A program made the translations under genes and the position numbers. From Candidatus Avamphibacillus intestinigallinarum (GTDB taxonomy: Bacteria; Bacillota; Bacilli; Bacillales; Amphibacillaceae): a stretch of 46,633 bases of DNA. The notes beneath the pieces were generated by a model that saw only the letters and a program-made list of their open reading frames with translations, searched no databases and was not told the DNA's origin. The stretch spans positions 1 to 46,633 of the forward strand of contig DVIO01000127.1 in NCBI GenBank assembly GCA_018711205.1, in the 5' to 3' direction. Below are positions 27,382-29,170 of the stretch, in pieces (positions within the stretch are counted from its first letter, which is position 1; every line of letters begins with the position of its first letter).

Positions 27382-27412
27382 AAAGTTAGACAATCAAATA
27401 TCGCATATCGAT

Positions 27413-27551
27413 TCATCTTCGGGGCAGGGTGTAATTCCCGACCGACGGTAAATGAGTGTTACAACTCAAAGTCCGTGACCCACTTATTCAAAGTGGCTGA
27501 GCCGGTGCAATTCCGGGACCGACAGTTAAAGTCTGGATGGGAGAAGATGGA
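27413..27551 (+). promoter_or_regulatory. FMN riboswitch (RFN element)
   Basis: Classical RFN element: opening ATCTTCGGGGCAGGGTG (27415-27431), the internal ATTCCCGACCGACGGTAA (27433-27450), GAGCCGGTGCAATTCCG, and the closing GGGAGAAGAT that pairs with the 5' strand. It is followed by a terminator at 27603-27640, so FMN should stop transcription of the riboflavin transporter gene ribU. Confidence 0.96.
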
Positions 27552-27602
27552 AGCCTATGTATAGATGTTTTTGTGCATCTATATTTTCCAATAGATTCTA
27601 TT

Positions 27603-27640: not shown

Positions 27641-27717
27641 AATGGAATTTATACCAGGCTAAATTCCTTCATCAACATCAGATGTAATCGATATGTAGGA
27701 TGAAGGAGGAGATTGTG

Positions 27718-28302
27718 ATGACACATAGTCAATCATCACGAAAATTATTAAAAATGATCATCATTGCTTTATTAGGTACAGTATCTTTATTCTTATTCTT
27801 TTTAAACTTCCCGTTGCCTTTATTGCCGGCCTACTTGAAAATTGACTTTAGCGATGTACCAGCTATTTTAGCTGCCTTTGTATTTTCGCCTGTAGCAGGT
27901 ATAGCGGTTGTCGGGATTAAAAATATTTTATATTTTGCAACTGTCGGTTCAGGGGATCCAGTTGGCGTATTAGCAAACTTCTTAGCCGGTGTGATGTTTA
28001 TCGTACCTGTCTCATTTATGTATCACAAGTATAGAAAAGGTGTGAAGAGCATCATTACTGGACTTATAGCAGGTACAGTCGTTATGACCATTGGGATGGT
28101 TGTATTGAATTATTTAGTCATCTTACCAACTTATGCAACGGTAATGGGTTGGGAAATGAGTGCAACTGAAAAATGGTGGAGTGTGCTTGTGGGGATTTTA
28201 CCATTTAATGTGATTAAAGGTATTATTGTCAGTATGCTATTCGTCCCATTATACTTGAGAATGCGTACGTGGATTGAACAGAAGCGTATGAACTTTGCTT
28301 AA
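27718..28302 (+). CDS. ribU: RibU, riboflavin ECF transporter S component
   Basis: 194-residue membrane protein with about six helices, the substrate-binding S component that captures riboflavin and works with a shared EcfAA'T module encoded elsewhere. Typical motifs: LKIDFSDVPAILAAFVFSP (about 39-57), VVGIKNILYF (about 63-72), and GVLANFLAG. The FMN riboswitch upstream confirms the substrate. Start at 27718 since AAGGAGGAG ends 7-8 bases before it; an ATG at 27700 lies upstream of the binding site. Confidence 0.95.
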   Translation: MTHSQSSRKLLKMIIIALLGTVSLFLFFLNFPLPLLPAYLKIDFSDVPAILAAFVFSPVAGIAVVGIKNILYFATVGSGDPVGVLANFLAGVMFIVPVSFMYHKYRKGVKSIITGLIAGTVVMTIGMVVLNYLVILPTYATVMGWEMSATEKWWSVLVGILPFNVIKGIIVSMLFVPLYLRMRTWIEQKRMNFA

Positions 28303-28312
28303 AAATATATTT

Positions 28313-28353
28313 AAAAGGATTGAATGTCTTCTAAGGACATTCAATCCTTTTTT
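28313..28353. terminator. Terminator between ribU and the LOV-STAS gene
   Basis: AAAAGGATTGAATGTC (28313-28328) pairs with GACATTCAATCCTTTT (28336-28351); 16 bp, T-rich and A-rich ends, usable in both directions. Confidence 0.9.
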
Positions 28354-28378: not shown

Positions 28379-29170
28379 TCAAGTTGTTAACTGTGCAAGT
28401 GCAGATTTTACATCATTGTAGGTGTGGAATTTGTTAAAATCTAACATAGCTTGATTGAATCCGATTGCAAGATTTGGTGTGATTCCAGTTAATATTAAAC
28501 ATGACCCCATAATACTTAATAGTTGATCTAGTGAACGAATCGTTTCATAAATGCCTTCTGTCACATTACCGATACTAGATAAATCAATGATTAAATAATC
28601 ACTCTGGTTTTTTAAAATATGAGCACTAATTGAGTCCATTAATGTAGTTAAACGGTCTTCTGTAACCCGGCCAATAAGTGGTAGGACAGATATCGAGTCT
28701 GTAATCGGCAAAATAGGGGTCGATAAAGAACGCACATCTTCAACATATGCTTTCAATTCCATTTCTTTTTCAACATCTTCTGTTATATCATTTTGAATGG
28801 CTATGAAAAATGATTGATTGAGCTCTTCAATTGTAACGGGAAAGATATTTAAAAAGTTCCAAAAAGGTGTGCCGTCTTTTTTAAAGTTTTTCAACCTGAT
28901 GCGTACAGGTTTATTTTCAGAAACGCCGTCTTCGATTTCGTAAAATTTAATAGGATCTGGATTATCCCCCTGTAAAAAACGTGCGTTTAAACCAAGTACT
29001 TCCTCAGGTTCGTATCCAGTTATTTTTGTAAACCCTTCATTCACATATATAATCGGATTATCTTCTTGATTCGGGTCAGTGATACTAACGCCAACACCAA
29101 GACGTTCAATCGTTGAACGGATGATTTGATTTTGATGAATAAGGTCATATTTATGTAAATAATCTTTCAT
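28379..29170 (-). CDS. ytvA: LOV-STAS protein (YtvA-like) lacking the photoactive cysteine
   Basis: 263 residues: N-terminal cap helix (1-20), LOV/PAS domain (about 21-127), linker helix (128-148) and STAS domain (about 149-258). B. subtilis YtvA is a blue-light input to the sigma-B stressosome. Flavin-contacting residues are kept: N62, R64, Q67, N95, N105, N108 and Q126. The photoactive cysteine of NCRFLQG is alanine here (A63, codon GCA): the site reads LNARFLQG. A flavin can still be held, but the cysteinyl adduct cannot form. The gene is otherwise intact, with AGGAG before its ATG, so it is not an obvious pseudogene. Confidence 0.92.
   Translation of the reverse strand: MKDYLHKYDLIHQNQIIRSTIERLGVGVSITDPNQEDNPIIYVNEGFTKITGYEPEEVLGLNARFLQGDNPDPIKFYEIEDGVSENKPVRIRLKNFKKDGTPFWNFLNIFPVTIEELNQSFFIAIQNDITEDVEKEMELKAYVEDVRSLSTPILPITDSISVLPLIGRVTEDRLTTLMDSISAHILKNQSDYLIIDLSSIGNVTEGIYETIRSLDQLLSIMGSCLILTGITPNLAIGFNQAMLDFNKFHTYNDVKSALAQLTT

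Follow-up and report, generated by a model that had tools for sequence, protein, structure and literature searches.

The window, that is, the whole stretch of DNA analysed here, comprises 46,633 nucleotides of contig DVIO01000127.1 from Candidatus Avamphibacillus intestinigallinarum (Bacillota; Amphibacillaceae). It encodes, on the minus strand, a LOV-STAS protein of the YtvA / RsbR-paralog family, the gene for which converges on a riboswitch-preceded ribU-like gene. The features of the locus are as follows.

27411..27552, plus strand: FMN riboswitch (RFN element) 5′ of the ribU-like gene (117 bits; gathering score, 66)
27700..28302, plus strand: RibU-like substrate-binding component of an ECF transporter (riboflavin uptake), convergent neighbour of the LOV-STAS gene, also adjoining the ortholog in genome G001
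28313..28351, no strand assigned: inverted repeat flanked by A/T runs, located where the LOV-STAS and ribU-like genes converge
28379..29170, minus strand: LOV-STAS protein (YtvA / RsbR-paralog family), 263 aa (open reading frame, Pfam, NCBIfam and structure match)
28400..28717, minus strand: STAS domain, residues 152-257 (Pfam)
28778..29119, minus strand: LOV (PAS) domain, residues 18-131 (Pfam and predicted structure)
28799..28801, minus strand: codon GCC (Ala124), at YtvA Gly121 on strand I-beta, a glycine in 157/157 relatives
28931..28933, minus strand: codon GAA (Glu80), at YtvA Arg79, the second FMN-phosphate arginine (by alignment; role of R79, PMC3836802)
28982..28984, minus strand: codon GCA (Ala63), at the adduct-forming Cys62 of YtvA

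The inverted repeat at 28313..28351 likely represents a bidirectional terminator shared by the two genes, judging from its position and form. Co-regulation of the LOV-STAS and ribU-like genes was considered and rejected, since they are convergent and a terminator-like hairpin lies between them. The ribU-M42 neighbourhood is conserved in G001. Lumazine synthase is encoded in the window genome; therefore, riboflavin auxotrophy is not obvious.

The LOV-STAS open reading frame is uninterrupted and starts with ATG, immediately 5′ of which a Shine-Dalgarno-like AGAGGAG can be read from the sequence. Pfam matches place a PAS_9 domain at residues 34-131 and a STAS domain at residues 152-257, and the protein scores 285 bits against the NCBIfam family YtvA_fam (NF052652), the cut-off of which is 250. 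A first-pass annotation of this DNA had called the protein a YtvA relative with its STAS domain kept, and both statements are borne out by the LOV/PAS-STAS order, the family score and the Pfam match. The top match among solved structures is full-length YtvA (2mwg, E=2e-66), and the predicted LOV core superimposes on the crystal structure of the YtvA LOV domain (2pr5) at 1.2 A over 125 columns. The alignment used for the structure prediction contained only the LOV segments of Ala-LOV loci, because of which confidence is low for the STAS half. The gene is not a pseudogene.

The LOV motif of the window protein reads G-L-N-A63-R-F-L-Q-G, with alanine (codon GCA) at the position of YtvA Cys62, as the first-pass annotation had pointed out; the photoactive cysteine in NCRFLQ that marks adduct-forming LOV photoreceptors is thus absent. 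No alternative LOV cysteine is available in the translation, because the only cysteine of the protein belongs to the GSCLIL stretch of the STAS domain. Compared with TGC in the G001 ortholog, GCA is different at all three bases; therefore, a single base miscall cannot give Ala63.

Beyond the cysteine, the same annotation had described the flavin pocket as otherwise kept, a description that is only partly true: it stands for the polar contacts. The residues that it listed as flavin contacts (N62, R64, Q67, N95, N105, N108 and Q126) are all present, including those corresponding to the polar contacts N61, R63, Q66, N94, N104 and Q123 in YtvA numbering. However, three substitutions, R80E, G124A and T71P, hit strongly conserved LOV positions, which weakens the first-pass argument that an otherwise intact pocket speaks against a pure loss of function. 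The second phosphate-binding arginine of YtvA, R79 (PMC3836802), is Glu80 in the window protein, in a column occupied by R or K in 152/157 relatives; Ala124 occupies a column that is Gly in 157/157 LOV-STAS relatives, and Pro71 one that is Thr in 146/157. The YtvA LOV domain has similar affinities for riboflavin and FMN, the flavin in endogenous YtvA was 71% riboflavin (PMC3836802), and R79L is tolerated in a fluorescent YtvA-LOV C62A protein (PMC4041573). By analogy with these cases, the window LOV domain may possibly still bind flavin despite R80E. When the four Cys-less LOV-STAS proteins were pooled, the conserved LOV columns showed 24 changes versus 10.2 expected after divergence correction (P=1.7e-4), a value that is only indicative, as sites and thresholds were picked on the same data and the two proteins from genus g3 are non-independent; the conserved STAS columns of the same proteins showed 11 changes versus 10.9 expected. 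The window protein taken alone had 5 changes in conserved LOV columns versus 2.45 expected, which is not significant (P=0.10).

The comparison covered 157 LOV-STAS relatives from the same family and order. In this comparison, of the kind suggested at first pass, the photoactive position is Cys in 154 of the 157, so chance does not account for the alanine; the remaining three are Ser, Gly and Ser. Two of these three, L192 in G002 (Ser) and L204 in G004 (Gly), belong to g3, a genus with small genomes in the same family, and the third, L256 in G466 (Ser), belongs to another family of the same order. Motif residues are also changed in these proteins (F65I/L; Q67H and N105S in G466). The nearest match of the window protein is the ortholog in G001, with 47% identity and TGC at the photoactive codon, and the gene order menA-menI-LOVSTAS-ribU-M42 is common to both genomes. 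As this syntenic ortholog keeps TGC, the cysteine was lost on the branch of the window genome after its split from the G001 ortholog. Parsimony on a tree built without the Cys column gave three changes at that column, and there were at least three separate losses among the 157 relatives and the window protein, namely here (A), in g3 (S, G) and in G466 (S). For the g3 pair, dN and dS were 0.12 and 1.5 in the LOV domain and 0.18 and 2.2 in the STAS domain, giving a dN/dS of about 0.08, with dS near saturation. This low ratio indicates that the protein is under purifying selection there; if the ancestor of the pair was already Cys-less, the LOV domain would have retained a selected role without the cysteine. 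At 47% identity, even the closest relative is too distant for dN/dS to be measured on the window branch itself. The LOV/STAS dN ratio is 0.74-0.79 for the window gene, from distant comparisons only, versus 0.60 for the Cys-containing G001 ortholog. The motif of that ortholog (L008) reads NCRFLQH, with His at the usually invariant Gly that follows NCRFLQ.

As for the output pathway, contig C132 of the same genome (L188, G000:C132:4000-11500) carries a full rsbRA-rsbS-rsbT-rsbU-rsbV-rsbW-sigB-rsbX operon, and the rsb-sigB partners to be expected beside a YtvA-family protein were found by domain and family matches. A MazEF-like pair lies upstream of the operon, as is usual in Bacillales; the names MazEF-like and rsbX on this contig are putative assignments from gene position rather than from a family cut-off. 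Apart from RsbRA and the window LOV-STAS protein, no RsbR-type STAS protein was found in the genome. The sigma-B stressosome, which had been proposed as the target of the protein, is therefore present and intact.

Genes related to light exposure were also surveyed. No photolyase was found in genomes G000-G005, and the enzyme is absent from 134/159 genomes of the family. Photolyase occurs in 19/43 family genomes with a LOV-STAS gene versus 6/116 without one (P=3e-8), and its absence did not differ significantly between Cys-less and Cys-containing genomes (P=0.16). Neither a photolyase nor a CrtM-like phytoene synthase was found in any of the three family genomes with a Cys-less LOV-STAS protein (P=0.037, Fisher's test with kinship ignored), which is a weak proxy of lifestyle, as it concerns three genomes only, two of them from one genus. 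As a control, B. subtilis gave no photolyase match although YtvA serves light sensing there. The absence of photolyase was thus not accepted as proof of a dark lifestyle, given its absence from most of the family and the P value of 0.16.

With moderate confidence, the window gene is interpreted as encoding a stressosome subunit of the RsbR type that no longer undergoes adduct photochemistry and is maintained by a light-independent role. In the proposed mechanism, the STAS domain would join RsbRA and RsbS in the stressosome, and the LOV-STAS subunit would ease the release of the kinase RsbT, which would switch on RsbU and, in turn, sigmaB. The LOV domain would stay a folded dimeric module, possibly with flavin (riboflavin being tolerated), and would form no cysteinyl-flavin adduct. 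We infer incorporation into the stressosome, a positive effect on sigmaB and the absence of a physiological light response. In B. subtilis, overexpressed Cys62-mutant YtvA still raises sigmaB activity in a light-independent manner and loses the blue-light response (reviewed in PMC4844311); therefore, a light-independent role is favoured over adduct-free light sensing. A ytvA null mutant of B. subtilis shows an ethanol response reduced by 20-25% (PMC3944199). The light-independent role is also supported by the excess of changes at conserved LOV columns, and not at STAS columns, in the Cys-less proteins. Further support comes from the intact gene with its family score, the full rsb-sigB operon, the TGC of the syntenic G001 ortholog, the repeated Cys losses, the purifying selection on the g3 pair and, weakly, the lack of photolyase and CrtM-like synthase in the Cys-less genomes. 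Counting against it, the LOV core of the window protein does not evolve clearly faster than its STAS domain, the evidence on lifestyle (P=0.037) is weak, and N62, R64, Q67, N95, N105 and Q126 are kept, which would be needless if no flavin were bound.

A second reading, which we consider unlikely, is that a flavin bound by the LOV domain is (photo)reduced to the neutral semiquinone or the hydroquinone and that this reduction is the signal passed to the stressosome, the domain acting as a light or redox sensor. The claim of the first-pass annotation that a Cys-less LOV domain can signal by flavin photoreduction is well founded for an engineered protein: YF1 C62A, a YtvA-based kinase, still shows ~60% light repression with wild-type-like dose dependence, and a response to reduction is known for natural LOV-like regulators without the cysteine (PMC4682037), which makes such a sensor a fair rival. 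Midpoint potentials of LOV domains near -250 to -300 mV would permit the flavin to be partly reduced inside cells (PMC11151830), and the retained polar flavin contacts, the purifying selection on the Cys-less g3 orthologs and the recurrence of Ala-LOV domains in other bacteria, sometimes in several related species, point in the same direction. However, R80E, G124A and T71P hit conserved LOV positions, two of which, R80 and G124, are retained in most of the Ala-LOVs from other bacteria, and the other Cys-less LOV-STAS proteins have lost motif residues as well. Native B. subtilis YtvA needs Cys62 for its blue-light response (PMC4844311), and the S59-independent ethanol signal was not attributed to a redox input of YtvA (PMC3944199).

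It is rather improbable that the gene is simply a decaying photoreceptor heading for loss in a dark habitat where light sensing is worthless. The small genome (1.99 Mb at 91% completeness), the long branch of the window protein, the lack of photolyase in G000-G005 and the complete absence of LOV-STAS from G003 (genus g3) and G005 are what such decay would leave, but the reading frame is uninterrupted with a normal start, synteny is conserved, the STAS domain and most LOV invariants are kept, and the Cys-less g3 pair has a dN/dS of about 0.08. It seems highly doubtful that loss of the phosphate arginine has shifted binding from FMN to riboflavin so that the stressosome reads flavin supply, as the adjoining riboswitch-controlled ribU would hint. 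R80E is a charge reversal, the riboflavin binding of YtvA and the tolerance of R79L described above would permit such a shift, and ribU adjoins LOV-STAS in both g1 and g2; however, the convergent ribU has its own riboswitch and a terminator in between, which argue against co-transcription, in G001 the LOV-STAS protein encoded beside ribU has the usual Cys and Arg, and the window genome also makes riboflavin. A sequencing or assembly error at the Ala63 codon, conceivable in a draft of 181 contigs from a single strain, was rejected as hardly credible, in view of the three-base difference from TGC in a clean surrounding frame, the two further unusual LOV residues within the same gene and the independent Cys losses in related genera.

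The notion that alanine at this position is unique in nature was rejected: across 84,980 species genomes, the pattern GxNARFLQG matched 98 stretches, and 20 of these could be aligned as LOV domains. None of the 10 Ala-LOV loci scanned with Pfam had the LOV-STAS architecture; most had GGDEF/EAL, hybrid kinases, short LOV proteins or no recognised output. The Ala-LOV domains from distant bacteria (L117, L126, L122, L147, L127, L149, L077, L096, L119, L129, L106, L141, L151, L160, L157 and others) often have GGDEF/EAL or histidine kinase outputs, mostly keep the rest of the pocket, and in some cases are shared within a clade, as in two Halomonas and in several gammaproteobacteria. They make more promising candidates than the window protein for a functional adduct-free LOV sensor.

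Natural LOV domains lacking the cysteine, some with Ala in its place, were reported in 2015, and by the sequence criteria set out there the window protein is one of them. A literature search, which covered open-licence papers only, found no description of recurrent Cys loss within the LOV-STAS family, and the repeated losses are more interesting than the window protein singly. A quite unlikely but broader possibility is that several Bacillales lineages have independently made YtvA an adduct-free stressosome input that is still selected and reads flavin occupancy or redox state, in which case an ancestral or secondary role of LOV in the stressosome would not be light sensing. To our knowledge, stressosome inputs besides blue light are mostly unknown. 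The natural set of Cys-less LOV-STAS proteins, with at least three losses and purifying selection in the sole measurable pair, would help to tell apart what YtvA does independently of light and what depends on its photochemistry. The set also provides natural equivalents of the engineered C62A flavin fluorescent proteins.

Among known systems, the closest are YtvA of Bacillus subtilis and RsbL (Lmo0799) of Listeria, the LOV-STAS blue-light receptors of the stressosome, with which the window protein shares domain order, length, NF052652 membership, the LOV fold (2pr5, 1.2 A), the STAS domain and the rsb-sigB operon, whereas it has Ala for the adduct Cys, Glu for the second phosphate Arg and Ala for the invariant Gly. 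The natural Cys-less LOV-like domains (LOV*) collected by Yee et al. in 2015, about 70 entries in which Cys is replaced by Ala, His, Pro or others, for example halobacterial BAT (PMC4682037), have a LOV pocket motif with a replaced Cys as well; all 9/9 LOV* positions (G59, N61, R63, F64, L65, Q66, N94, N104 and Q123, YtvA numbering) are kept in the window protein, in which the replacement is Ala, whereas the characterised BAT has Pro and another architecture. The Cys-less LOV-STAS proteins L192 and L204 (g3) and L256 (G466) are of the same family and keep the STAS domain, but represent independent losses with other replacements and other additional changes (F65I/L, Q67H, N105S). EcFbFP (YtvA LOV C62A) and YF1 C62A carry the identical substitution in the same domain; these engineered proteins retain R79 and G121 unchanged, whereas the window protein is natural and has a full-length STAS output.
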